63,576 bases of DNA from Vulcanimicrobiota bacterium (lineage in GTDB: Bacteria; Vulcanimicrobiota; JAJTBE01). The translations under genes were made by a program, and so were the position numbers. Where the stretch lies: assembly GCA_021107945.1 (NCBI GenBank), contig JAIORV010000007.1, positions 1 through 63,576 of the forward strand, given 5' to 3'. The notes under the pieces are model-generated. The model was not told the origin of the DNA. It made no database searches and saw nothing but the letters and a program-made list of their open reading frames with translations. Numbering within the stretch: position 1 is the stretch's first letter; each line of letters opens with the position of its first letter. Shown one piece after another: positions 1,818 to 57,091 of this stretch.

Positions 1818-2774
1818 TTATACTCTCTGCCGCCAGTAATCCAGTATGTCTTCCAGCGTCTTTTCAAGCGGGATCTCCGCCTTCCAGCCCGTCAACTCCG
1901 TAAACCGTGAATTGTCGCCATATATTGCCGGGGCATCGCATGGGCGTAGGCGTGAGGGATCCTCCTTCACCTTGACTTCCACGGAGCTTAACTCAAGCAG
2001 TATATCAAGTATGTTTCGGATTTTTATCACATGTCCGGAGCATATATTTAAAACCTCGCCCGGCGGGCATTTTTGTACCATCATCCAATAGGCGCGAACC
2101 ATATCACGAACATCGGTATAATCCCTTTTCGCCTCAAGGTTCCCCACCTGTATCACAGGCTCTTTCTTTCCTTTTTCTATAAGGGCGATCTGCCTGGCGA
2201 AATTCGACTCCACAAAGTTTAGCTCTCTGCGGGGGCCTGTATGGTTAAACGCACGGGCACGGTAAATCTTCAGGCCGTAACTCTTGCAATACTGGAACCC
2301 GGCAAGATCCTGGACAACTTTGCTCACAGCATATGGACTCAACGGGTGGAGAAGTGTGTCCTCGGTTACCGGGAGATCGCCCTCCCCGATCATTCCATAT
2401 TCCTCGCTGGATCCGGGGATGAGTATCTTGCACTCCGGGTTGTATTCATGTAAAGCTTCGAAAAAGTTTATCTCGCCTATGATGTTGGTGATAAGCGTTT
2501 CACGGGGGGCATGCCAGGATGTGAATACCGACGATTGAGATGCCATGTGAAATATTATGTCGGGTTGAACATCCTTCACAAGGCGGCGCACCGAGACACC
2601 GTCACGAATATCGCAGTCCTTTAATGTGATTTTTGATTTTATATGCTCTATATTATCCATTCGGCTTCGCCACCTGTAAGTGCCGAAAATATCTATATCG
2701 GTCATATTTTCAATTAAATATTCCGCCATGTAACTTCCCACAAGGCCTGTGATGCCGGTTATTAATACTTTCAT
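1818..2774 (-). CDS. NAD(P)-dependent sugar epimerase/dehydratase, GDP-6-deoxymannose reductase (Rmd)-like
   Basis: A 318-residue extended short-chain dehydrogenase. The Rossmann motif GITGLVG is at residues 7-13. The catalytic triad is Ser in GSSEEYG (121-127) with Y148 and K152 of YAVSK. RAFNHTGPRR and the C-terminal TGWKAEIPLEKTLEDILDYW pattern are typical of GDP-4-dehydro-6-deoxy-D-mannose reductase and GDP-mannose 4,6-dehydratase relatives, so the role is nucleotide-sugar synthesis for a deoxyhexose in surface glycans. The start has a good site, GAGGTGAAAGT, before the ATG. A close paralogue lies just upstream. Dehydratase versus reductase cannot be settled by eye. Confidence 0.85.
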   Translation of the reverse strand: MKVLITGITGLVGSYMAEYLIENMTDIDIFGTYRWRSRMDNIEHIKSKITLKDCDIRDGVSVRRLVKDVQPDIIFHMASQSSVFTSWHAPRETLITNIIGEINFFEALHEYNPECKILIPGSSEEYGMIGEGDLPVTEDTLLHPLSPYAVSKVVQDLAGFQYCKSYGLKIYRARAFNHTGPRRELNFVESNFARQIALIEKGKKEPVIQVGNLEAKRDYTDVRDMVRAYWMMVQKCPPGEVLNICSGHVIKIRNILDILLELSSVEVKVKEDPSRLRPCDAPAIYGDNSRFTELTGWKAEIPLEKTLEDILDYWRQRV

Positions 2775-2864: not shown

Positions 2865-3830
2865 CTACGTGGTTGGCTTATAATTTCTCCAGTAATCAAG
2901 CAAATCTTCCAATGTTTTTTCAAGCTGTATCTCCGGTTTCCATCCTGTCAATTTATTAAACTTTGTATAGTCTCCCAGCAGAATCGGTACGTCTGACGGA
3001 CGAAGTCTGTTGGGATCAATTTCAATTTTTATTTCAACTCCCGCCTTCGATACGAGTATATCAAGGAGATTTTGTATAGATATGGCCTTTCCTGAGCATA
3101 AATTATAGACATCGCCGGGTTTGCCTTTCTCAATCGCAAGGCAATACGCCCTGACAATATCCCTGGCATCGGTAAAATCTCTTTTTGCCTTCAGGTTGCC
3201 TACCCGGACGATTGGTTCTTTTCTTCCCTTTTCGATATCCACAATCTGTTTTGCGAAATTGGACTCGACAAAAACATCACCTCTTCTGGGTCCCGAGTGG
3301 TTAAATGCACGGGTTCTTATGAGATGGAACCCGTAACTCATATAATACTGGTATGCCAGCATATCCTGCCCCACCTTGCTCACTGCGTAGGGACTCATGG
3401 GGCGCAATGGGTTGGTTTCTTTTATCGGCAGCTCGTCAGGATTGACAAGCCCGTATTCCTCGGAGGATCCTGCTATCAACATCCTGCAGTTTATATTAAG
3501 CTCCCGCATTGATTCGAGTATATTCAACTGCCCTATGATGTTATTACTGATGGTGTCGGCGGGGGCATGCCAGGAAGATAGAACATAACTCTGGGCGGCA
3601 AGGTGGAAAATCCAATCGGGTTGAACATGCTCCATCATACGACGCACGGAGCTGCTATCATGAAGATCGCATTCCACCATATTGAGCTTATTTTTTATTT
3701 GATCAATATTCTCCATTCGACTTCGCCAGCGGTAAGTACCATAGATTGAGAATGACGGGTCTTTCTTTAATAGATATTCCGCCAGGTGACTTCCCACAAA
3801 TCCTGTAATTCCCGTAATTAATATCTTCAA
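2865..3830 (-). CDS. NAD(P)-dependent sugar epimerase/dehydratase, Rmd-like (paralogue)
   Basis: Paralogue of the 1818-2774 gene, 321 residues from a TTG start at 3830. It has GITGFVG, GSSEEYG, YAVSK and RAFNHSGPRR in the same order and the same C-terminal LEKTLEDLLDYW ending. The frame extends to an ATG at 3878, but AAAGGAG lies 8 bases before the TTG and the extra residues are not found in the paralogue, so I use the TTG. The two genes, 90 bases apart on one strand, may carry out successive steps on one GDP-sugar, for example dehydration then reduction. The stop codon lies in the repeat at 2846, so the last residues (YKPTT) differ from the paralogue. Confidence 0.85.
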   Translation of the reverse strand: MKILITGITGFVGSHLAEYLLKKDPSFSIYGTYRWRSRMENIDQIKNKLNMVECDLHDSSSVRRMMEHVQPDWIFHLAAQSYVLSSWHAPADTISNNIIGQLNILESMRELNINCRMLIAGSSEEYGLVNPDELPIKETNPLRPMSPYAVSKVGQDMLAYQYYMSYGFHLIRTRAFNHSGPRRGDVFVESNFAKQIVDIEKGRKEPIVRVGNLKAKRDFTDARDIVRAYCLAIEKGKPGDVYNLCSGKAISIQNLLDILVSKAGVEIKIEIDPNRLRPSDVPILLGDYTKFNKLTGWKPEIQLEKTLEDLLDYWRNYKPTT

Positions 3831-4009
3831 AGGGACTGCTCCTTTCAAATCAGAGGTCAGAGGTCGTGAGGGTATCAAAAAACCTCAAATCCCGTTTATT
3901 TCCCGTTTCTATCCACCAGAGAGGACACAGAGGTATAATATTTTTCCTCCGGTTATCCTCTGCGGACTCTGCGCTCTCTGCGTTGAATAAAACTAAACTT
4001 TCTATAACG

Positions 4010-5482: not shown

Positions 5483-6199
5483 TCAAGATTCGTGAATTGC
5501 GCTAAGGATTTTGATCCCGTCTTTCTTATGAGAAAGCTGAAATCTTTTCAGGCTGTGGTTTACGCCTCGCATTTTAACTATTTCTATATATCGGATAACA
5601 TCATCAAGTGTCTCCATCATACCAAGTCGAATAATGCCGTCGGCAAGAAAGTGGTATGGTAGTTTGTCCGTTTGATTTGAAAGATTGTCGCCTCTTTCGA
5701 TAACTATCCAGTTATTTGTGCTAAGTTCACTAATATAGCTGAAGAAGTGGAAAAGGACTCTTCTTATGTTATCATCTCCTATGTCCGTTTCCATAACGTT
5801 GACGGGATCGATTGCAAGTATTTTTATTTTATCCCCATATTTTTCATAGTACTCGGATAAAATTGATGAAAATCCGTCAAACATATCCCTGCTTTTTGTT
5901 GTTGTTCCGATTCTGTCTATAATATCGTCATAATCAATAATAAAAAGTCGCTTATTGTTGATAAAATCCCCAAATTCCTCGTGAGAATAATAAAAATTCT
6001 TGTCTTCTTTCAGGGAAACAAAAACACATATATTGCTTTCATCTCGTTTGAGGCAATGTTTCAGGCATTCCAGAACGAAAGTTGTCTTGAGGACCCCCGT
6101 TTCTCCCTCAATAAGTACCGTTCTTCGTTCAGGAAGCTTTGAAAAAATTACCTTGTCAATTCCCTGAATTTCATTCATTGAATACCATCTCACATTCAA
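5483..6199 (-). CDS. KaiC-like RecA-superfamily ATPase (1)
   Basis: A 238-residue single-domain KaiC/RecA-type P-loop protein. Walker A is GETGVLKTT (about residues 32-40) and the Walker B strand is KILAIDPVN. Near the end, VKMRGVNHSLKRFQL matches the conserved KaiC-family strand around the 'K.RG..HS' motif. Circadian KaiC has two such domains; single-domain relatives are common signalling or regulatory ATPases. The TTG at 6199 and ATG at 6178 are both possible starts; the ATG has GAGATGG six bases upstream. It lies 31 bases downstream of a second KaiC-like gene and ends one stop codon before the membrane protein's open frame. The role is unknown. Confidence 0.8.
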   Translation of the reverse strand: MNVRWYSMNEIQGIDKVIFSKLPERRTVLIEGETGVLKTTFVLECLKHCLKRDESNICVFVSLKEDKNFYYSHEEFGDFINNKRLFIIDYDDIIDRIGTTTKSRDMFDGFSSILSEYYEKYGDKIKILAIDPVNVMETDIGDDNIRRVLFHFFSYISELSTNNWIVIERGDNLSNQTDKLPYHFLADGIIRLGMMETLDDVIRYIEIVKMRGVNHSLKRFQLSHKKDGIKILSAIHES

Positions 6200-6230
6200 A
6201 AATCATTATTGGACTAAAAACTCTCCGTTG

Positions 6231-6911
6231 CTATCGGTATACCGCCCCAAGAATAGACAATCCTTCATCGCTTGCCACAAGTTGTCTTTTTTTAAGACTA
6301 TGTGAAGACCAGGCATATTTTATCGGTTGTAAATACCTCACCACGTTTCCGCGGCTTCGTATGATGCCCAGAGATATTATACCGTCGGCAAGGAATCTCT
6401 CTCGAAATTCGCCCTCTATATTCTCGGATGCTCTTTCAAATATTACCAGGGATATTATATCTAATTCTTTTAGTTTCCGGAAGAATGATAATATGGAACT
6501 TTTAAGGTATTCAGTGTCAGTTATAGAATAAATGGCGTTCAAGGAATCGAGGGTGAAAATGCGGAATTTTTCCTTCTTCTCGGATTTTATGGATTTCAAC
6601 ATCTCCAGGATTGAGTCAAACATATTTACGCATGTCTCTTCATCAGGCATTGCTTTTCTCATAATATTATAATCGCTGACCAAGAGATTCTCAGGATTCG
6701 CCAGTCCCAGGGATTTCATATTATTAAGATGGCTTTGCCAGGGCTGCTCGAATGTAAGATAAAGACCAAAGTTCTCTTTGTCTTTAAGAATATCAAGCAT
6801 AAGACTGAAACAAAGCGCTGATTTTAATGTGCCTGCGGATCCCTCTACCAGAAATAACGATGATTTCACAGGATCAACAGAAAATATATCTTTAAATGTG
6901 ATAGGTTTCAT
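6231..6911 (-). CDS. KaiC-like RecA-superfamily ATPase (2)
   Basis: A 226-residue single-domain paralogue of the neighbouring ATPase. Walker A is GSAGTLKS (residues 24-31) and the Walker B region is FRIFTLDSLN. LADGIISLG and SSHSLKKRQL match the corresponding segments of the downstream protein. The start ATG is preceded by AGGAGTTGCA. Two divergent single-domain KaiC-like proteins encoded side by side may form a heteromeric ring or a pair of antagonists, which is inference. Both follow the sigma factor on the same strand with a 78-base gap. Confidence 0.8.
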   Translation of the reverse strand: MKPITFKDIFSVDPVKSSLFLVEGSAGTLKSALCFSLMLDILKDKENFGLYLTFEQPWQSHLNNMKSLGLANPENLLVSDYNIMRKAMPDEETCVNMFDSILEMLKSIKSEKKEKFRIFTLDSLNAIYSITDTEYLKSSILSFFRKLKELDIISLVIFERASENIEGEFRERFLADGIISLGIIRSRGNVVRYLQPIKYAWSSHSLKKRQLVASDEGLSILGAVYR

Positions 6912-6989
6912 TGCAACTCCTGTGTTCTTTTGTTATTATTATAAAGCATAGAATTTCCTTTAATTTTTGTATTTACTATAAATTCACTC

Positions 6990-7769
6990 TTAACTTTTAT
7001 TAAGTTCGTATTTATTGTCATCTCCTTTGGTCTTTTGTTCCAATTCACCTTTAATAAATACCGCTATTTTACGTCTTGCCCTGAAAAGTGCGTTCTCGAC
7101 CTGTTTCTTGGATAGACTGTTATGTTGTGCCATCTCATCCACCGAGGAATCCGCAATTTTCATGGAAATGATCTTGTATTCCATCGGTGACAAAATATTT
7201 TTGAAGGATTTATACATTTCATTTTTAGATATTTTACCCAATACATGCTCTTCTACGTCCATTTCCGAGAACATTGATGCATAATAATACGGATCTTCGT
7301 CCAGAGAGTATGCTTCACTTAGTACTTTTTGCTTTAACTGAGTCGCCATCCTGACGGCGCGAAGAATTCGATTTCTGATAGAAAGGCTTGCATAATCATC
7401 AAAATGGGTTTTATATTTAAGATCATAATTGACAATAGCATTGAAAAGGCCAATCATTCCTTCCTGAACAAGGTCTTCCTTTGTTGAGCCGGGAAGGAAA
7501 AATTTCTTACCTATTTGATATACAAACCGGGAATACTCGTCAAAGAGCTCATTGATTGCTTGTTCATCTTTTTCCCGGGCTTTTTTAATAAGATTGATGA
7601 TTTCTTTTTGATGCTCTTGGTAGATGAAGCAATTATCACAGGTAAGACTCGAATCTTTCCGGCAAAAACAACCGTTTTTCAACAGCCAACAATTGCGAAG
7701 GGACATTTTGGCCGGGCATGAAAGGTACTCATGTAATTGGCACTTATATATTTCGTGGCATTTTCTCAC
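6990..7769 (-). CDS. sigma-70 family sigma factor with N-terminal cysteine cluster
   Basis: A 259-residue protein. Residues about 55-240 are a sigma-70 family factor of SigH/Sigma-30 type: region 2 contains DLVQEGMIGLFNAIVNYD and region 4 contains a helix-turn-helix ending QVENALFRARRKI. It is preceded by eight cysteines within 47 residues (positions 4, 10, 18, 27, 34, 36, 44, 47), including CPA, NCW and CDNC. This resembles the 'two-CW' type cysteine-rich module and could bind zinc or an Fe-S cluster, or sense redox state. Alternative sigma factors normally lack such a module. Start GTG with GGGGGA upstream. It heads the operon with the two KaiC-like ATPases, which could act as regulators of the sigma factor (inference). 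Confidence 0.85.
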   Translation of the reverse strand: MRKCHEIYKCQLHEYLSCPAKMSLRNCWLLKNGCFCRKDSSLTCDNCFIYQEHQKEIINLIKKAREKDEQAINELFDEYSRFVYQIGKKFFLPGSTKEDLVQEGMIGLFNAIVNYDLKYKTHFDDYASLSIRNRILRAVRMATQLKQKVLSEAYSLDEDPYYYASMFSEMDVEEHVLGKISKNEMYKSFKNILSPMEYKIISMKIADSSVDEMAQHNSLSKKQVENALFRARRKIAVFIKGELEQKTKGDDNKYELNKS

Positions 7770-8047: not shown

Positions 8048-8082
8048 GTTTTATCAGATGTTCAGGATATGGAGGTATGGAA

Positions 8083-10677
8083 ATGGAAATTAGAAAAGGT
8101 TCATATATAGCAGGTGGCAAGGGAAATGACAGGACCGGGAAATTAAATAAATCTTTAACAACAAAGCAACCGGGAGACAGGGTCTCACTGGGTGGAAAAC
8201 CGGAAAAGCTACCCCAAAAACCTGCAGTGGAAAATGTAAAAGCAACCGGGAATACAGCGAAGAAAACACAATTGGCCAGCGTCACGTCGGGGTTCACGGC
8301 AACGGATGCGGCAGCTTCGGCTGTAACCGGAAGCGCGGGGGCGGCGGCGAAAGGGCTCAACCTGCAGGTAATGAAGAACACCATTGAAAGCCTGAAGAAA
8401 GCTAACGTTTCATTCCTCAAGAAGAAGGGATTCTACATACCTTTTGTAACTGGTAAATTTGCCAAAATCGGCGCCGACGAAGTGGCGAAGGAACTCTCGG
8501 AGGGCAGGGACGAGGACAAAAAGAATCTTCGGGTTCAGCCTCAGGGGCTTGGTATGATGCCCATAATGGATGAGGGAGATGTGCAGGAGCTCGGGGCGTT
8601 TCATCTGACAGGAGCTACAGGCTTATTGCCCCGGAATGAAATTGCAGGATTTCTTAACGACGCAGTTTCATCAGGAATGGAATTAAAAGGATTGTCGGGG
8701 GAAAATCTCGGAGCGTACGGCGCTTATAATTATGTGACCACGGGATGGGAATCGGCCGGGGTCGAGAAACAATCAGTGGATCTCTATCGTGACGGCACAG
8801 CCGTTTTAAGACTCACTCCCGATAAGATACGGGATCCATTTGCGGTAAAGAAAGAATTGAAAGATGCATGGGATGCGTATAATACTCTTGAGAAATATGG
8901 TAGCAAGTATTTGTCCACCGTCGGGGAGCCTATTGGCAAAACCTCTTTTCTCAAGAAATTTGAGATTTTTGAAAAACTGAAGAAAATAGAACAAGGCAGT
9001 GACGATGCAGAAATCGTTTATTCCGTGATTGAAAAGAAAACCGAATCGGGCGAGGATTTTGAGAAGGTTGCCAGCTATTACTTTGATATCAGGAATGAGG
9101 TAGATAAGTACTTTGATACGATGGATGCTCTCAAGGCGTTTAATTATGCAAGAAGCAACCTGAAAGATAATCCCGTGCTTTCGAAAGCTTTTGTTGATAT
9201 TGTCAAGGGAACCGGTGATGTAAGCGATGCAATAAAAGCTTTGCGTCTCATCACAGCCCCGGTGGCAAAAGAATCCTTCAACGACAGGCGTGAGGCAATG
9301 CTAATGCTGACAGACGTCGCCAATAATGAGGGAGTGGAAGCCTATGAACTGGCATCTCAATATATGCTGCCGGGCGAGACAATAAAGGACTCTGCGAAAG
9401 AATATGCGGAAATGAGGAAAGGTCAGAGTTACCGTAGTGGAAAACAGGTTCCCGGAGCTTTCGAATATATGAGAACCGAATTGAAGGACAGCCCGGAGCA
9501 GAGGGAGATATTCAAGGGATTATTTAAAACTATACCAGATAAGTTTAAAGCAATAAGGATAATGAACAGCCTGAAAGCCCCGTTTGGTGACTCGACATAT
9601 AAAGAAAGGGCAGAAATAATGACAGGGCTGCTGAAGTCTGAGGATTCTGAGAAGGCTCGGGAAGATTTCGAGTACATAAAAGGCCAGACGAAAAAAGGTG
9701 AGAAGCTTGTCGATGTTGGCCGCCTCTATGCAGATATGCTCGATGCTGTCAAGAAAGGTTACTATCAAGAACAGGCGAGAAAAGCATTTAAATATGTTCG
9801 AGATACACTCAAACAAGATCCCGGTAAAACCTCCAGCTTCAGCAAGATACTGCGTAAGTCGGATTACACCAGTAATGCCATCAAAACATATGAAACCATA
9901 CAGAAACCTGTTAAGGGCGAGGATTACCAGATGAGGGAGAATACAGCACTGAAGCTTCTCGAACATGGTGATTTCAAGGAGAATTACGAGGTTATATCCA
10001 AACACATCTATTCCGGTGAGACACTGGAGAAAGTTACCGACCAATTCCTGGCAATACATAAGGCAATGGGTAATAAGGAATACTATACCGATGAAAGCCG
10101 GAAGGCGTTTATCGATATGAAGGAGAAATCGAAGAACGATCTCACGAAGTTTGACCGTTATATCAACCTGCTAAAGGAGTTCAAGAATTTCGACCTGGCA
10201 AAGAAGGCGCAGGAGCTTCTTGAAAAACCTGTGAAGAATGAGGGATATGAGGCTCGTGAAGAAGTTCTCCTGAATATGTTAAAATGGGAGGACGGGTCTG
10301 ACAACTCAAGTAAAGACGCAGTTGATAATTACGAAACTCTCGTGAAGAACATGGATAAAGATGAGACTCTCCCCGATGCGCAGAAACGATTCAAGCTCCT
10401 GTTTGATGTCCTGGGAGCAAGGGAGAAGTCGGAAGAGGTCAGAGATGCCTTCTCATTTGTGGGAGAGCATGTCAAAAAGGGAACATTCCCCGGTAAGAAC
10501 TCAAGGGAAGTAACGGATGAACTGGTCAGATCATTGCTTATATCCGACAGTCTTGAGGACGCGAAGGAGCATCTGCTCTTCCAGGCAAATCAGGGCAAAG
10601 ACAACTCTGATAATACCATCAGGCACGAGGATGATTATGTGATAATCGGCGGAGTGAAACTGAAAAAGAAAAAATAA
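8083..10677 (+). CDS. large alpha-helical repeat protein of unknown function
   Basis: 864 residues with no recognised family. The first ~75 residues are polar and low in complexity and carry PGDRVSLGG. A hydrophobic Ala/Gly-rich stretch follows near residue 90. From about residue 340 the chain is a series of four to five imperfect ~120-residue helical units of pattern AFxYxRxxLKxxP ... AIKxxxxIxxPV ... YxxRxExxxxLL ... GExLxxVxxxYxxMxxA. This suggests a superhelical scaffold. There is no signal peptide. GGAGG lies seven bases before the ATG at 8083; the ATG at 8077 overlaps that site and is rejected. The same leader motif and start arrangement occur in the phospholipase D protein at 48716. 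The terminus is Lys-rich (KLKKKK). Confidence 0.8.
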   Translation: MEIRKGSYIAGGKGNDRTGKLNKSLTTKQPGDRVSLGGKPEKLPQKPAVENVKATGNTAKKTQLASVTSGFTATDAAASAVTGSAGAAAKGLNLQVMKNTIESLKKANVSFLKKKGFYIPFVTGKFAKIGADEVAKELSEGRDEDKKNLRVQPQGLGMMPIMDEGDVQELGAFHLTGATGLLPRNEIAGFLNDAVSSGMELKGLSGENLGAYGAYNYVTTGWESAGVEKQSVDLYRDGTAVLRLTPDKIRDPFAVKKELKDAWDAYNTLEKYGSKYLSTVGEPIGKTSFLKKFEIFEKLKKIEQGSDDAEIVYSVIEKKTESGEDFEKVASYYFDIRNEVDKYFDTMDALKAFNYARSNLKDNPVLSKAFVDIVKGTGDVSDAIKALRLITAPVAKESFNDRREAMLMLTDVANNEGVEAYELASQYMLPGETIKDSAKEYAEMRKGQSYRSGKQVPGAFEYMRTELKDSPEQREIFKGLFKTIPDKFKAIRIMNSLKAPFGDSTYKERAEIMTGLLKSEDSEKAREDFEYIKGQTKKGEKLVDVGRLYADMLDAVKKGYYQEQARKAFKYVRDTLKQDPGKTSSFSKILRKSDYTSNAIKTYETIQKPVKGEDYQMRENTALKLLEHGDFKENYEVISKHIYSGETLEKVTDQFLAIHKAMGNKEYYTDESRKAFIDMKEKSKNDLTKFDRYINLLKEFKNFDLAKKAQELLEKPVKNEGYEAREEVLLNMLKWEDGSDNSSKDAVDNYETLVKNMDKDETLPDAQKRFKLLFDVLGAREKSEEVRDAFSFVGEHVKKGTFPGKNSREVTDELVRSLLISDSLEDAKEHLLFQANQGKDNSDNTIRHEDDYVIIGGVKLKKKK

Positions 10678-15293: not shown

Positions 15294-17510
15294 ATGCGGA
15301 AAGGAAGTGAGATTTTGGAAAAGACAGAAGAAAAATTGGATTTTGAGGAGCTTCGCCCGAATTTTCTTCCACAACAGGCGATGCTGGAAGCGAACAGGTG
15401 TCTTTATTGCTATGATGCCCCTTGTCGCAAGGGATGTCCCGTGAATATTGACATTCCTCACTTTATCCAGTCCATCCGCTCGGGCAATTTGAAAAGGTCT
15501 GCGCGTCTTATAAACGACGCAAACCCATTCGGCTCGGTATGCGGTAGAGTCTGTCCTGTGGAGAGATTGTGCGAGGAAAAATGTGTTCTCAGCGAAATCG
15601 GAAAACCTGTTGAGATTGGGATGCTACAAAGATTTGCAATGGATTACGGGGAATATCTTAGACAGCCTGCAGCCAAAAACGGACGTAAAGTTGCAGTTAT
15701 AGGATCGGGACCGGCGGGTCTCTCCTGTGCTTCCGAGTTGGCAAGGAATGGATACGAGGTTACCGTTTTTGAATCAAAACAAGTTCCCGGGGGTATGGTT
15801 GCGTATGGAGTTCCTGAATATCGGTGTCCCCACAGTGTAACAGCGGCGGAAGTTGAAAAGATTGTCAACGAGGGAGTCGAGATCAGATCCGCTACACCTG
15901 TGAACAGGGATGTATCCGAGTTGTTTGAACTGGGATACGAAGCCGTCTTCGTGGGAGTCGGATTAACAAAAACGAGTCGCTTTACCGTTCCGGGCATGGA
16001 ATTGAAAGGCGTCTATATGGGCCTTGATTTCCTGAACCGGATATCCGCAGGCGATCGCCCCGATGTGGGAAGAAAAACTGTGACAATAGGCGGAGGGGAT
16101 ACAGCTCTTGATTGCGCAAGATCAGCTTTGAGACTGGGAGCGGAGGAGTCAACGATAGTCTATCGACGCTCGTTTGTCGAGCTTCCGGCGGATAAGAGAG
16201 AGATAGAAGAAGCGCTTGAAGAGGGAGTCGTGTTCAGAACTCTGGCTCAGCCGATGGCGTTTTACGGAGATGACCAGGGAGTTCTTCGCGCCGTGGAATG
16301 TGCCAATGTGAAGCTGGGGAAACCCGACGAGTCCGGCCGCAGAAGCCCTGTCATTATAAAGGGATCCGAATTCAGATTTGCCGCGAACACCGTTATTTTT
16401 GCAACAGGAACACAACCATCAGGACTCCTCAGAAGAATACTAGTGGCGGCGGAGTATGTGGACAACAGATTCCTCAAGGTCAATCCTGAGACAATGGAGA
16501 CCTCAATAACCGGTGTATTCGCCGGTGGCGACGTTGTCAACAAGGGGCAGACCGTTGTTCAGGCAGTTGCGGAAGGCAAACTCGCTGCCAGGGGAATGTT
16601 GAAGTACCTGGAAACGAAGGCGGAGCCTGTACCAATGGAAGAAGTTGTCCCCGCTGAAGCACCTGATGTTGAAGAAGTGGAACTTGAAGTGGAAGAAGTA
16701 GAAGAAACTCCCATGAAAGAGCAGAAGCTTGAGCATATCGAGGATAAGGTGGAAGAAGCCCTGGAGCAGGCAAGAGAAACATTAAAGAAGCTCGAGGAAG
16801 AGGAAAAAGAAATAAGTGAAGAGGTTGTTCACAAGGTAGAAACTACTGAAGAAGAGGCAATAATCGAAGAGGAAGTCGAAGAACCCGAAGAAGAAACGGA
16901 ATCGGCCGAAGCAGCCCCTGAGAAAGCGGAAGAACTGGAGGTAGAAGAGCTTGAGGTAGAAGAGCTTGAAGCAGAAGAGCCTGAGGTAAAAGAGCTTGAG
17001 GTAGAAGAGCTTGAAGCAGAAGAGCCTGAGGTAAAAGAGCTTGAGGTAGAAGAGCTTGAAGCAGAAGAGCCTGAGGTAAAAGAGCTTGAGGTAGAAGAGC
17101 TTGAAGCAGAAGAGCCTGAGGTAAAAGAGCTTGAGGTAGAAGAGCTTGAAGCAGAAGAGCCTGAGGTAAAAGAGCTTGAGGTAGAAAAGCTTATGGAAGA
17201 AGAGCTTGTGGAAGAAGAGCTTTTGCCAGAAGAGCCTGAGGCGGAAGAACCTGAAGAAGTCCTGGAAGAGGCAGTGGAGGCGGTTCAGCAAGATACGGAT
17301 GAGCTTATCGGGAAAATCGAAGCCGATGAAAAAACGGTTGAAGAAGCCCTCGAGGAAATAATCGAAAGTAAAGAAGAAGAGCCATCTGAAGAAGAACCAT
17401 CTGGAGAAGAGCCGGTGGAAAAAGCTGAGGAAGAGGAAACACAGGAGGAGACTTCTGAAGAAGAGAAACCGGGAGATATAGGGGAGAAAGGAGGACATCA
17501 TGGGAATTGA
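15294..17510 (+). CDS. preT: PreT/GltD-like NAD(P)H-dependent oxidoreductase subunit with long acidic C-terminal tail
   Basis: 738 residues. The first ~445 form a GltD/PreT-type flavoprotein: an N-terminal Fe-S domain with CLYCYDAPCRKGCP and CGRVCPVERLCEEKC, an FAD site VIGSGPAGLSC (about 135) and an NAD(P) site TIGGGDTALDC (about 264). PreT passes electrons from NADH to PreA in dihydropyrimidine dehydrogenase; GltD serves glutamate synthase. The overlapping downstream preA supports PreT. Residues ~446-738 are an extraordinary Glu-rich tail that includes five near-identical 15-residue units. PreT homologues normally end near 410-460 residues. AAGGAAG precedes a TTG at 15315, which may be the true start instead of the ATG. 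The tail may be a flexible tether or charge buffer (inference). Confidence 0.85.
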   Translation: MRKGSEILEKTEEKLDFEELRPNFLPQQAMLEANRCLYCYDAPCRKGCPVNIDIPHFIQSIRSGNLKRSARLINDANPFGSVCGRVCPVERLCEEKCVLSEIGKPVEIGMLQRFAMDYGEYLRQPAAKNGRKVAVIGSGPAGLSCASELARNGYEVTVFESKQVPGGMVAYGVPEYRCPHSVTAAEVEKIVNEGVEIRSATPVNRDVSELFELGYEAVFVGVGLTKTSRFTVPGMELKGVYMGLDFLNRISAGDRPDVGRKTVTIGGGDTALDCARSALRLGAEESTIVYRRSFVELPADKREIEEALEEGVVFRTLAQPMAFYGDDQGVLRAVECANVKLGKPDESGRRSPVIIKGSEFRFAANTVIFATGTQPSGLLRRILVAAEYVDNRFLKVNPETMETSITGVFAGGDVVNKGQTVVQAVAEGKLAARGMLKYLETKAEPVPMEEVVPAEAPDVEEVELEVEEVEETPMKEQKLEHIEDKVEEALEQARETLKKLEEEEKEISEEVVHKVETTEEEAIIEEEVEEPEEETESAEAAPEKAEELEVEELEVEELEAEEPEVKELEVEELEAEEPEVKELEVEELEAEEPEVKELEVEELEAEEPEVKELEVEELEAEEPEVKELEVEKLMEEELVEEELLPEEPEAEEPEEVLEEAVEAVQQDTDELIGKIEADEKTVEEALEEIIESKEEEPSEEEPSGEEPVEKAEEEETQEETSEEEKPGDIGEKGGHHGN
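16936..17190 (+). repeat. 45-bp coding tandem repeat
   Basis: A 45-bp unit starting CTGAGGTAAAAGAGCTTGAG repeats without interruption from 16981 (units at 16981, 17026, 17071, 17116, and a fifth diverging from 17161), with a partial unit before it. It encodes the acidic 15-residue unit EVEELEAEEPEVKEL. The identity between units implies recent expansion by slippage or unequal exchange. Because 45 is a multiple of three, copy-number change keeps the frame. Confidence 0.9.
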
Positions 17511-21072: not shown

Positions 21073-22458
21073 ATGAGTGGAGCAGGAAGTTTGCAGAATC
21101 AGGCGGACCGACAAGAGAAGAAACCACCGGACAACAGGGGCCCAGAGAAAAAAAAAGGAAGTTGGATTTCAATCGCTTATCGTTTATTTGTTGTGGTTTT
21201 TCTATTTGTTTCATCTCTATATATTCTCTGGTATTTATCATCGATTCCTTCGTTTTTGTCTAAAAGTAATGTTGGCGAGAGGCTTGGCATGATGTACGCG
21301 ATTCAATTAAAAAGTCCTCCCCTGGGCAGTGAGATAATCACTCTTATGGGAGTACTTTTACTTATTGGAGTATATCTTGTAATAGATCTCTTTTTTCTGC
21401 AAAAGGTTAGCTTTAAAGCAAAAATATTATTTAATCTTATCTGGATTATTATGCTCTTTGGTACAGTTGAACTCTTCTTAACCCGTTATGTCAGGCTTAA
21501 TCCTGATCTATACCGGCCTCACCCCACATTAATATGGGAGTTAACCCCAAATTTCTTTGCTGATAGAAAGGATTTTCACGATCCCAACAATGCTTCCGGC
21601 AGGGAGTATCCTGATTTCCCTGCCAACAAAGGGAGAGCCGGGGCCATTCAGAATCGCATTAACCGCTTCGGCATGCGCTATCCTGATTTCCCTGTTAAAA
21701 AGGAACCCGGGGAATTCCGTTTTATTATACTGGGTGATTCCAGCGCCTTTGGTCTTGGCGTACCGGAGTGGTGTCGATATACTGACATTCTGGAAGAAAA
21801 ACTTCAGGAAGCTTATCCTCACAGGAAAATCAGAATTATTAACGCGGCGGTGCCCGGATATACAACATTTCAAATGAATTCGCAAATGAAATTGCACATG
21901 AAGAAGTTTAAGCCAGATTGTCTGATTCTTGCCACCATTAATGATCACGCAACCGATTATGCCGGGGATAAAAAGCGGGGTCCATCGGAAATCCTCATGC
22001 CCCTTTTTAATCTTCTGTATAGAAGTAAAATATATATGGTTTTACGAAAGAATATTTTTAACTGGAGTTTTAATCGGAAATTAAGGGACCACAAGAAAAC
22101 AGCCACAAAACCCCGGCCGACGTCACATCGTGTAAACATTAATGATTCCAAAAAATTTCAGGAAGAAATGATAAACAGGATAAAATCCTGGGGTGGAAGT
22201 GCAATTATCATATCACAGCCTGTCAGAGATAGTTTTCTTGAAGGGGATACTGCAAGGAAGTATAGGAATGTAATGAGGGAGGTTTGTCAATCTACAGGCT
22301 CTCTTTTTGTGGATATTAATTCACAATGGACAAGGCAGTATAGTGAAGGGCTTTTTTATGATTGCGTACACCCAAATAGGGAAGGACATAGAAAGGAAGC
22401 TGAAATCCTCTATGAGATGATAATTAGCAATGATGTTATCCCAAAAAACAAGAGATGA
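21073..22458 (+). CDS. membrane-anchored SGNH/GDSL-family hydrolase (copy 1)
   Basis: 461 residues. A polar N-terminus (SLQNQADRQEKKPPDNRG) is followed by three hydrophobic helices (about 36-56, 89-110, 117-137) and a periplasmic SGNH-like domain from about 215. Block I is FIILGDSSAFGLG with nucleophile S223, a Gly/Asn-bearing middle block is INAAVPGYTTFQMN, and the C-terminal DCVHPNREGH supplies Asp430 and His433. The family includes esterases and O-acetyltransferase partners acting on envelope polysaccharides, so surface glycan deacylation or acylation is likely. It is a tandem duplicate of the next gene. Confidence 0.8.
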   Translation: MSGAGSLQNQADRQEKKPPDNRGPEKKKGSWISIAYRLFVVVFLFVSSLYILWYLSSIPSFLSKSNVGERLGMMYAIQLKSPPLGSEIITLMGVLLLIGVYLVIDLFFLQKVSFKAKILFNLIWIIMLFGTVELFLTRYVRLNPDLYRPHPTLIWELTPNFFADRKDFHDPNNASGREYPDFPANKGRAGAIQNRINRFGMRYPDFPVKKEPGEFRFIILGDSSAFGLGVPEWCRYTDILEEKLQEAYPHRKIRIINAAVPGYTTFQMNSQMKLHMKKFKPDCLILATINDHATDYAGDKKRGPSEILMPLFNLLYRSKIYMVLRKNIFNWSFNRKLRDHKKTATKPRPTSHRVNINDSKKFQEEMINRIKSWGGSAIIISQPVRDSFLEGDTARKYRNVMREVCQSTGSLFVDINSQWTRQYSEGLFYDCVHPNREGHRKEAEILYEMIISNDVIPKNKR

Positions 22459-22590: not shown

Positions 22591-23973
22591 ATGAGTGGAG
22601 CAGGAAGTTTGCAGAATCAGGCGGACCGACAAGAGAAGAAACCACCGGACAACAGGGGCCCAGAGAAAAAAAAAGGAAGTTGGGTTTCAATCGCTTATCG
22701 TCTTTTTATTGTGATTTTTCTATTTATTTCATCCCTATATGTTCTCTGGTATTTATCATCGATTCCTTCGTCTTTTTCTGAGAGTAATATTGGCGAGAAG
22801 TTTGGCATGATGTACATGCTTCAATTAAAAAGTCCTCCCCCGGGCAGTGAGATAATCACCCTTGTGGGAGTATTTTTGCTTATTGGAATATATCTTGTAA
22901 TAGATCTCTTTTTTCTGCAAAAGGTTAGCTTTAAAGCCAAAATATTATTTAATCTCATTTGGATTATTCTACTTTTTGGTACAGTTGAACTTTTCTTAAC
23001 CCGTCATACCAGGCTTAATCCTCTGCCAAACAAGCTTCACCCCACATTAATATGGGAGTTTACCCCAAATTTCGGTGTTGGTAGAAGGGGTTTTCGAAAG
23101 CGTATCGGGGCTTCCGGCATGGGTAGTCCTAATTTCCATGCTGACAAAAGGAGAATCGGGTTTATTCAAATTAACCGCTATGGCATGCGCTATCCTGATT
23201 TCCCTGTTGAAAAGGAACCCGGGGAGTTCCGTTTTATTTTGCTGGGTGATTCCAGTGCCTACGGTCATGGCGTGTCTGTGGGGTGTCGATATACTGACAT
23301 TCTGGAAGAAAAACTTCAGGAAGCTTATCCTCACAGGAAAATCAGGGTTATTAACGCGGCGGTGCCCGGATATACAACATTTCAAATGAATTTGAAAATG
23401 AAATTGTACCTGAAGGAGCTTAAGCCTGATTGCCTGATTCTTGCTACTATTAATGATCCCATACCCGATTATGCCGAGGATAAAAACCGGGTTCCCCCGG
23501 AAATCCTCATGCCCCTTTTTAATCTTCTGTATAGAAGCAAAATATATATGGTTTTACGAAAGAATTATTTTGCCTGGAGTTTTAAAAGGAAATTAAGGGG
23601 CTGCAAAAAAGCAGTCGAAAGACCCTTGCCGACGTTATGTCGCGTAAGCATTGATGATTCCAAAAAAAATCAGGAAGAAATGATAAACAGGATGAAATCC
23701 TGGGGCGGGAGTACAATTATCATATCACAACCTATCAGATCTGACAGTTGTCTTGAAGGGGATGTTACAAGGAATTATAGGAATGTAATGAAGGAGGTTT
23801 GTCAATCTACAGGCTCTCTTTTTGTAGATGTTTATTCACAATGGAAAAGACAGGATAGTCAGAGACTTTTTATTGATACTGAACATCCAAATATGGAAGG
23901 ACATAGAAAGGAAGCTGAAACCCTCTATGAGATGATAATTGGCAATGATATTATCCCAAAAGATGAGAAATGA
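22591..23973 (+). CDS. membrane-anchored SGNH/GDSL-family hydrolase (copy 2)
   Basis: 460 residues, duplicate of the preceding gene at a period of 1518 bases. The first ~35 residues and the block around TDILEEKLQEAYPHRKI are nearly identical, while the segment between the membrane helices and the hydrolase domain has diverged. GDSSAYGHG, INAAVPGYTTFQMN and DTEHPNMEGH keep the nucleophile, Asp and His. Upstream DNA is duplicated as well (from about 22527), so both copies share the same leader. Membrane topology as for copy 1. Substrate unknown. Confidence 0.8.
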   Translation: MSGAGSLQNQADRQEKKPPDNRGPEKKKGSWVSIAYRLFIVIFLFISSLYVLWYLSSIPSSFSESNIGEKFGMMYMLQLKSPPPGSEIITLVGVFLLIGIYLVIDLFFLQKVSFKAKILFNLIWIILLFGTVELFLTRHTRLNPLPNKLHPTLIWEFTPNFGVGRRGFRKRIGASGMGSPNFHADKRRIGFIQINRYGMRYPDFPVEKEPGEFRFILLGDSSAYGHGVSVGCRYTDILEEKLQEAYPHRKIRVINAAVPGYTTFQMNLKMKLYLKELKPDCLILATINDPIPDYAEDKNRVPPEILMPLFNLLYRSKIYMVLRKNYFAWSFKRKLRGCKKAVERPLPTLCRVSIDDSKKNQEEMINRMKSWGGSTIIISQPIRSDSCLEGDVTRNYRNVMKEVCQSTGSLFVDVYSQWKRQDSQRLFIDTEHPNMEGHRKEAETLYEMIIGNDIIPKDEK

Positions 23974-54955: not shown

Positions 54956-57091
54956 ATGAAATTTCCAGATGTTGTAAAAAGAACCGGGGATGTTGTCCCT
55001 TTCGACAAAGACAGAATTAATAAAGCTATATTAAAGGCAAATGAAGCTACAAACGAGCTCAATGAATCCAAAATCAACAAGATCACGGAAACCGTATGCT
55101 ACTTTATAAATAAATCCAACAGGTTTAACGGTAAGATTGCCGTAGAGGAAATTCAGGATCTTGTGGAATTTGCCCTGATGTCATCGAGTTATTACAAGAC
55201 AGCCAGGGCATATATCGTCTATAGGGAAAAAAGGGCAGGAGTCCGCGATTCCAGCTCCGTGGCGGTGGAGGTAAGTAACACCATAAACGAATACCTTCAC
55301 AGAACCGACTGGAGAGTGAATGCGAACGCTAACCAGGGATTCTCTCTGGGCGGGCTTATACTGAATACGTCGGGAAAGATAATCGCCAACTACTGGCTGA
55401 GTTATGTATATCCGGTGGAGATAAAGAATGCCCACACGGATGGCGATTTCCACATACACGACCTGGATATGTTCTCGGGATATTGCTCCGGTTGGAGTCT
55501 CCGGCAATTGCTGGAAGAGGGTTTCAACGGTGTGCCCGGCAAGGTGGAGTCATCGCCGCCGAGGCATCTTGAATCCGCCGTTGCCCAGATAGTCAATTTT
55601 CTCGGGACTTTACAGAACGAATGGGCGGGAGCCCAGGCACTCTCATCGTTTGATACTTTTCTTGCGCCCTTTCTAAGACTTGACAATATGGGATTTTCAA
55701 AGGTAAAGCAATCCATACAGCAGTTCGTGTTTAATTTGAATGTCCCGTCACGCTGGGGAACTCAGACGCCCTTTACGAATATTACCCTCGATTGGGTCTG
55801 CCCCGAGGATCTCAGGAACAGAAGACCCCGGGTCGGCGGGAAAGAGCTTGATTTTACATACGGCGATTGCCAGAAGGAAATGGATATATTAAACCGCGCC
55901 TTCCTCGAGGTTATGTCCGAGGGAGATTCAAAGGGCAGGATTTTCACATTCCCCATTCCCACATACAATATAACCCCAGATTTTAACTGGGAGAGTAAAA
56001 ATGCAGGATTGCTTTTCGAACTGACAGCGAAATACGGAATTCCATACTTCCAGAACTTCATCAATTCACCACTTAGCCCCAGTGATGTCAGGAGTATGTG
56101 TTGCAGGCTGCAGCTTGATCTCAGGAAATTGAGAAGCAGGGGAGGCGGACTTTTTGGCTCCGCGGAAATGACGGGAAGTATCGGCGTTGTTACAATCAAC
56201 CTCGCAAGGCTGGGCTATCTTGCCGATACAAAAGAGGATTTCTTCAAGAGACTCACTCATCTGACGGATCTTGCAAGAAATTCCCTTGAAATAAAGAGAA
56301 AAGTTATCGAAAAAAATATCGAGCAAGGATTGCTTCCATATACAAAACGATATTTATATAGCCTGAAAAATCATTTCTCAACAATCGGACTCAATGGAGG
56401 TAATGAAGCTTGCCTCAATTTGCTCGGAGAGGACATAACTTCTCCCGCAGGTAAAACTTTTGCCCTTGAAATACTTGATTTCATGAGAGACCGACTGGCG
56501 GACTACCAGGAGGAGACCGGGAATTTCTACAATCTGGAAGCGACACCGGCGGAGGGAGCTACATATAGATTCGCCAAAGAAGACAAGATTCGCTTTCCCG
56601 GGATCGTCCAGTCCGGAACAGCGGACGCCCCATATTACACCAATTCCACGCAACTCCCCGTCTGTTATACTGATGATTCCATCGAGGCGTTGGAGCATCA
56701 GGACGAGTTACAGGCAAAATATACCGGGGGAACCGTTTTTCATCTTTTCCTGGGAGAGAGGCTTCCCGACTGGCGCGCCTGCAAGAGATTGGTGAGGAAA
56801 GTGTCAAATAGCTTCAAATTACCGTATTTCACAATAACTCCCACATTCAGCATATGCCCCACACACGGATATCTGAACGGCGAAGTGCAGAAATGTCCTC
56901 AATGCGGCGAAGAATGCGAGGTATGGTCAAGGGTGATGGGGTATCACCGGCCGGTCAAGCAATGGAATAAAGGGAAACAGAGCGAATTCAACGAGAGAAA
57001 AGTATTCACCCTGGATCAAGAAAGTAAAAAGATGAGTTGTGGGAAGCCGGAAGTGAGAGAATCGAAAGTCCTCGTGAATTCAGGTGTTTGA
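54956..57091 (+). CDS. nrdD: anaerobic (class III) ribonucleoside-triphosphate reductase
   Basis: 711 residues. The ATP-cone (about 3-90: VVKRTGDVVPFDKDRINKAI) senses dATP/ATP. The catalytic barrel follows (HIHDLDMFSGYCSGWSLRQL, GGNEACLNLLGEDI). The C-terminal zinc site is CPTHGY...CPQCGEEC (about 631-653), and the glycyl radical loop is SRVMGYHRPV (about 661). It makes dNTPs under anaerobic conditions after activation by NrdG, encoded 121 bases downstream. The usual C-terminus seems extended by ~20 residues read from repeat DNA (GKPEVRESKVLVNSGV). Confidence 0.95.
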   Translation: MKFPDVVKRTGDVVPFDKDRINKAILKANEATNELNESKINKITETVCYFINKSNRFNGKIAVEEIQDLVEFALMSSSYYKTARAYIVYREKRAGVRDSSSVAVEVSNTINEYLHRTDWRVNANANQGFSLGGLILNTSGKIIANYWLSYVYPVEIKNAHTDGDFHIHDLDMFSGYCSGWSLRQLLEEGFNGVPGKVESSPPRHLESAVAQIVNFLGTLQNEWAGAQALSSFDTFLAPFLRLDNMGFSKVKQSIQQFVFNLNVPSRWGTQTPFTNITLDWVCPEDLRNRRPRVGGKELDFTYGDCQKEMDILNRAFLEVMSEGDSKGRIFTFPIPTYNITPDFNWESKNAGLLFELTAKYGIPYFQNFINSPLSPSDVRSMCCRLQLDLRKLRSRGGGLFGSAEMTGSIGVVTINLARLGYLADTKEDFFKRLTHLTDLARNSLEIKRKVIEKNIEQGLLPYTKRYLYSLKNHFSTIGLNGGNEACLNLLGEDITSPAGKTFALEILDFMRDRLADYQEETGNFYNLEATPAEGATYRFAKEDKIRFPGIVQSGTADAPYYTNSTQLPVCYTDDSIEALEHQDELQAKYTGGTVFHLFLGERLPDWRACKRLVRKVSNSFKLPYFTITPTFSICPTHGYLNGEVQKCPQCGEECEVWSRVMGYHRPVKQWNKGKQSEFNERKVFTLDQESKKMSCGKPEVRESKVLVNSGV

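Follow-up and report, generated by a model that had tools for sequence, protein, structure and literature searches.

A SigH-like sigma factor with an N-terminal cysteine module of two-CW type, encoded beside single-domain KaiC-like ATPases

In a stretch of 63,576 nucleotides from the genome of a Vulcanimicrobiota bacterium (contig JAIORV010000007.1; the whole stretch is here called the window), a SigH-like sigma-70 factor carries eight cysteines in an N-terminal module and is encoded next to two single-domain KaiC-like ATPases (Table 1). The cysteines are conserved in the orthologue, the module is akin to the two-CW domain, and the sigma and KaiC-like genes are adjacent at both known loci and co-occur across the phylum. 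The locus is a new combination of known parts, and the regulatory idea attached to it is unproven but testable. It is tempting to see in it a sigma-70 factor of SigH type whose N-terminus, of two-CW type, serves for sensing or docking and whose partner switch is a single-domain KaiC-like ATPase, a tentative reading to which we give slightly less than even chances.

Table 1. Features of the locus, with positions in the window
Feature	Positions	Strand	Basis or details
SigH-like sigma-70 factor with N-terminal cysteine module	6990..7769	-	TIGR02937, PF04542, orthologue P0005
Divergent two-CW-type cysteine module, residues 1-57	7599..7769	-	C4, C10, C18, C27, C34, C36, C44, C47
Predicted helix 48-65, from the last CxxC of the module to sigma region 2	7575..7628	-	AlphaFold2, whole sigma factor
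Sigma-70 region 2, residues 75-141	7347..7547	-	PF04542, 46.5 bits (cut-off 24)
Sigma-70 region 4, residues 199-235	7065..7175	-	PF08281, 15.6 bits, below cut-off 25.7
KaiC-like ATPase a, single domain, P-loop GSAGTLKS	6231..6911	-	PF06745, 65.7 bits; 226 residues
KaiC-like ATPase b, single domain, P-loop GETGVLKT	5483..6178	-	PF06745, 97.8 bits; reading frame open from TTG 6199
Hydrophobic, probably multi-spanning membrane protein	4010 to about 5461		After ATPase b

The sigma factor and its cysteine cluster

The sigma gene encodes 259 amino acids, starts with GTG and has a GGGGG Shine-Dalgarno-like run upstream. Membership of the sigma-70 family follows from the TIGR02937 score (78.3 bits, cut-off 42.9) and likewise from PF04542. 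The original prediction had spoken of normal sigma regions 2 and 4, which stands for region 2, with scores above the cut-offs, while region 4 taken alone stays under its Pfam cut-off; AlphaFold2 predicts helices in this stretch at residues 195-205, 210-216 and 221-250. The nearest named group is SigH by HMM score, by PDB sequence (best relative 3mzy, a SigH) and by Foldseek, and it is in regions 2 and 4 that the likeness of sequence and fold is found. The window sigma factor differs from known SigH, which are without a cysteine module, and with 76-93 bits it misses all SigH equivalog cut-offs (208-414 bits for NF006147, TIGR02859 and relatives), as for instance NF006147 (92.9 bits, cut-off 212) and TIGR02859 (87.8 bits, cut-off 294.8). 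A sigma profile run on 398 genomes of another phylum, that of genome G064, retrieved ordinary SigH that lack the module.

All eight cysteines of the protein lie within the first 47 residues, at exactly the positions that had been predicted, and none is found in the other 212 residues. Such clustering has a probability of about 7e-7 under random placement; the window has a single occurrence of the spacing pattern, and 100 shuffles gave none. The predicted fusion of the cluster to a sigma factor is confirmed within a single reading frame of 259 residues. The module alone gave nothing above cut-off against Pfam and NCBIfam. The B-box was considered as identity of the module and discarded, the match being insignificant.

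A search of 58 genomes of the phylum with the sigma factor gave a sole orthologue, the full-length protein P0005 (46% identity) of the groundwater genome ‘Armatimonadetes bacterium NC_groundwater_315_Ag_B-0.1um_31_7’ (G005). The original prediction had been staked on conservation of the cysteines, and 8 of 8 are kept at identical positions in this orthologue. The module aligns without gaps, and the first 57 residues are 53% identical against 46% for the whole protein. Judged by these sequence comparisons, the cysteine cluster is a genuine domain and a conserved one. No match came from a single-protein scan of 84,980 species genomes; in the same collection the exact cysteine-spacing pattern gave 43 DNA matches, one of them in a protein with sigma regions (L083, the G005 locus) and the others in chance or low-complexity frames. 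The architecture is rare, and it is conserved across a family-level distance.

Modelled alone with AlphaFold2, with no ligand included, the module is compact and helical (mean pLDDT 80, pTM 0.59), and Foldseek found no match for this model in the PDB. The model of the whole sigma factor has a pTM of 0.56, so that the overall placement of the domains is uncertain, and shows the helix that leads from the module to region 2 capped by the last CxxC, within a block of pLDDT 83-97. This model suggests that the helix may transmit a change in the module to the part of the protein that binds the polymerase.

A paralogous SigH-like sigma factor, P0007, is encoded in the same genome (L170 5691-6548, contig C107), with 36% identity over the sigma part. 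Its N-terminal cysteine cluster is shorter and different (CPAGNIGSCPNDCPNFKLC) and may represent a reduced version of the module described here. The gene adjoins a flagellar gene cluster, with no KaiC nearby.

Relationship of the module to the two-CW domain

When the two sigma modules were compared, profile against profile, with 13 others taken from outside the window genome and G005, the probability was 97.3 and the E value 2e-11, which bears out the two-CW-like reading of the cysteine cluster proposed originally. The seven-cysteine order C..C..CPA..CW..C..C..C of the two-CW domain is present in the sigma modules as in the other 32 modules of the set, and across all 34 the seven cysteines and the Trp after C27 are invariant. 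Only the second of the two CW motifs is present in the sigma modules, the first being CH in the window and CT in G005. C34 was found in the sigma pair only. The NCBIfam model NF045718 ‘two-CW domain’ (cut-off 35 bits) was matched by 20 of the 34 related modules, and neither sigma module matched it at E up to 10, so that they are not filed as members.

The likeness to the two-CW domain thus lies in the seven cysteines in matching order, in the second CW and in the form of a small portable module at one protein end. The sigma modules differ from it in the replacement of the first CW Trp by His or Thr, in the added eighth cysteine and in the lack of an NF045718 score, and also in the carrier, which is usually a signalling protein (chemoreceptors, HTH regulators) and here a sigma factor. 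On these grounds the sigma module is best regarded as related to the two-CW domain and sharing its plan, though divergent, and not as a curated member. The phrase ‘two-CW domain’ was not found in the literature covered by our incomplete search.

A profile of the two sigma modules retrieved a TPR-TM-module-GAF-GGDEF protein in genome G017, and after this row had been added a second TM-module-GAF-GGDEF protein of the same genome, from outside the profile, was found at E 4.7e-13. G017 thus encodes two membrane-anchored diguanylate cyclases (L121, L124; TM, module, GAF, GGDEF) with the module on the cytosolic side and CC in place of CxC. In two other phyla, a four-row profile found relatives of the module in 28 of 398 genomes of the one and 34 of 247 of the other. 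Most of them are methyl-accepting chemotaxis proteins, MerR/HspR-like, XRE-type HTH, HD-GYP and small proteins, and no other fusion of the module to a sigma factor was seen among the relatives examined in those phyla. The module was absent at E up to 0.01 from 68 genomes of Hydrogenedentota, where there was no positive control, and in viral contigs there were two chance matches and nothing related to the sigma pair. The phylum of genome G058 has many MerR/HspR-like and XRE-type regulators whose C-terminus carries a module of two-CW type (L150-L168). Many modules of that phylum fall below or outside NF045718, which seems to cover just part of the family.

Small cysteine-rich folds are often structural zinc sites. 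The module could accordingly be a structural zinc-binding or docking extension, always loaded and non-sensing, while expression, or the ATPase by itself, would determine how active the sigma factor is; the commonness of such sites and a model that is compact even without ligand are both in line with this. The same type of module is nevertheless carried by many unrelated input-responsive proteins (MCP, HD-GYP, GGDEF, MerR, XRE), as would be expected of a sensory domain, and we consider a purely structural extension unlikely.

The KaiC-like ATPases and the extent of the unit

The genes are ordered sigma, ATPase a and ATPase b on the minus strand, with gaps of 78 and about 52 nt, and the shared strand and short gaps point to an operon. 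Both ATPases score above the PF06745 gathering cut-off (26.6 bits), in agreement with the two single-domain KaiC-family proteins predicted after the sigma gene on the same strand. ATPase b probably starts at ATG 6178 and not at TTG 6199. Like KaiC and the archaeal KaiC-like single-domain ATPases (for example PH0186, PDB 2zts), both have the KaiC domain, P-loop and Walker B. Circadian KaiC has tandem domains, whereas the sigma-linked copies have one each and a Leu in the P-loop, and the two of the window score 31.7 and 41 bits against the circadian KaiC model TIGR02655, whose cut-off is 546.25. The Leu replaces the second Gly of Walker A in all three sigma-linked copies (GxxGTLKS or GVLKT), unlike in the two-domain relatives compared. 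By alignment, the first of the two catalytic Glu of KaiC is kept in ATPase a (TFEQ) and in its G005 orthologue (TLEQ), and ATPase b has SLKED at this position. Drawing on what is known of KaiC, a may be the active copy and b a weak or modulatory one.

At the G005 locus, a KaiC-like gene (P0006) ends 22 nt before the sigma gene on the same strand. Its product is 41% identical to ATPase a and more distant from b, which makes it the orthologue of a. One KaiC is found next to the sigma gene in G005 and two in the window, and the gene order differs. The second KaiC is therefore not conserved, and the idea that a pair of KaiC-like ATPases is needed was not supported. The other G005 neighbours, named from reading of their sequences as Hsp20-like protein, response regulator, receiver-histidine kinase and TlpA-like thioredoxin, are absent beside the window sigma gene, so that the sigma factor and KaiC alone are common to both loci.

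Among 149 genomes of the phylum, the module-bearing sigma factor is present in two only, G000 and G005, and the short single-domain KaiC of the sigma-linked type is present in the same two; the remaining KaiC matches in the phylum are long, mostly two-domain proteins. If the traits were independent, coincidence in the same two genomes would be expected about once in 11,000. The prediction had named random KaiC linkage as an observation that would count against it. What was found is a KaiC gene adjacent in 2 of 2 loci and no single-domain type in the other 147 genomes. A KaiC profile run on 395 genomes of the G058 phylum also gave long, mostly two-domain KaiC only. No report joining KaiC-like genes with a cysteine-module sigma factor was found in an incomplete search of the literature. 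The main caveat on the co-occurrence is that it could reflect shared descent of one moved cassette, the linkage resting on only two loci.

The KaiC genes might, in the same vein, be co-acquired or co-regulated neighbours of the sigma gene, as for instance its targets, that moved jointly as a cassette and whose products are not its protein partners. The three genes do form an AT-rich island, two loci are known, and the other neighbours differ between the genomes. Against such a cassette of non-partners, adjacency has been kept at 46% and 41% identity in spite of the changed gene order, and co-occurrence is strict in the 149 genomes, which leaves it on the unlikely side though worth keeping in mind.

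The sigma-KaiC-KaiC block has 36.8% G+C (36-39% for the single genes) and ranks 7 of 246 among window stretches of its size, whose mean is 42.8 (sd 2.8). The membrane protein has 44.1% G+C and, together with two epimerase-like genes, spans 44-48%. It lies outside the AT-rich island and is therefore probably not part of the unit; it is not conserved either, and its involvement is not supported. The unit therefore consists of the sigma and KaiC genes, which were perhaps acquired together.

The two epimerase-like genes, downstream of the membrane protein, are tandem paralogues of sugar-nucleotide epimerase/reductase type (window 1818-2774 and 2865-3878, minus strand). Divergent from the sigma gene, a gene at 8077-10677 (plus strand) encodes an 866-residue protein with no family match, which looks mostly helical with repeated motifs.

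Weak PADLOC matches, of the sigma factor to MzaA and of ATPase b to mad8, could place the locus among the phage-defence cassettes of MZA or MADS type. What matches MzaA, however, is just residues 71-145, the widely shared sigma region 2; none of the neighbouring genes that were read could be recognised as a further component of either system, and viral contigs yielded no relative. We reject this assignment as very improbable.

Possible mode of action and precedents

In the reading that we prefer, with a sensory or docking module and a KaiC-like partner switch, the seven or eight cysteines would bind metal, as zinc or as an iron-sulphur cluster, or act together as a thiol switch, and the state of loading or oxidation would alter the compact module. 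The change would pass via the last CxxC and the helix into region 2, and set the uptake of the sigma factor by core RNA polymerase. ATPase a would bind the sigma factor or its module in a nucleotide-dependent manner, and hold or release the sigma factor as haloarchaeal GvpD does with GvpE, while the second copy b could be a modulator in the window genome. For the ligand, the signal, the transmission through the helix and all protein-protein contacts, we draw on the use of the module elsewhere and on precedent.

Several observations are counted against this scheme. Two loci are all that is known, so that the linkage could stem from a single transferred cassette, and the second KaiC is not conserved. 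With their altered Walker A motif the ATPases may or may not bind or hydrolyse ATP, and P0007 presumably works with its shorter, different cysteine cluster and no KaiC near.

The closest precedents for the sigma factor are CorE and CorE2, which are switched by metal via their own C-terminal cysteine-rich domain (PMC8999054). These ECF sigma factors are like that of the window in carrying a cysteine-rich domain of their own, and differ in that the domain is C-terminal and accompanied by a CxC in the linker between regions 2 and 4 (PMC8999054), whereas the cysteines of the window sigma factor are all N-terminal, with none after residue 47. The module is moreover of another kind, and the sigma factor is SigH-like and not ECF238. 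For the ATPases, there is the Walker ATPase GvpD of haloarchaea, which binds the activator GvpE and reduces its amount, the Walker motif being required (PMC4390858). The parallel is one of arrangement, a Walker ATPase encoded beside a transcription activator, and homology is not part of the comparison; GvpD and GvpE are archaeal, and GvpE is leucine-zipper-like and not a sigma factor. A KaiC-like regulator of Haloferax has also been discussed as a modulator of a transcription factor (CirA/CsmR, PMC13286277).

The new regulatory architecture originally proposed is supported in part, namely in the conserved two-CW-like module and the KaiC linkage, and not in the necessary KaiC pair or the membrane protein. 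That the locus embodies a hitherto undescribed form of control, a two-CW-type metal or redox sensor within the sigma factor combined with nucleotide-dependent KaiC-type anti-sigma or pro-sigma ATPases and no membrane anti-sigma factor, seems rather improbable to us; if true, one sigma factor would integrate redox or metal state with ATP state. KaiC-like ATPases occur widely, and a role as signalling hubs has been proposed for them, with outputs that are mostly unknown; a concrete, testable output would follow if their pairing with one sigma factor is a conserved one. The locus also joins a module of two-CW type, found in this analysis on chemoreceptors, c-di-GMP enzymes and DNA-binding regulators, to the core machinery of transcription, so that in vitro transcription could report directly on its ligand and its on/off logic.

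Elsewhere in the window, a gene at 15294-17510 (plus strand) encodes a protein resembling the small chain of glutamate synthase, whose long, acidic C-terminal tail is made up of near-identical repeats (EELEVEELEAEEPEVK and similar). Tandem near-identical membrane proteins with an SGNH-hydrolase-like domain are encoded at 21073-22458 and 22591-23973 (plus strand), indicating a recent duplication. An anaerobic ribonucleotide reductase (NrdD)-like gene at 54956-57091 (plus strand) is consistent with an anaerobic host.
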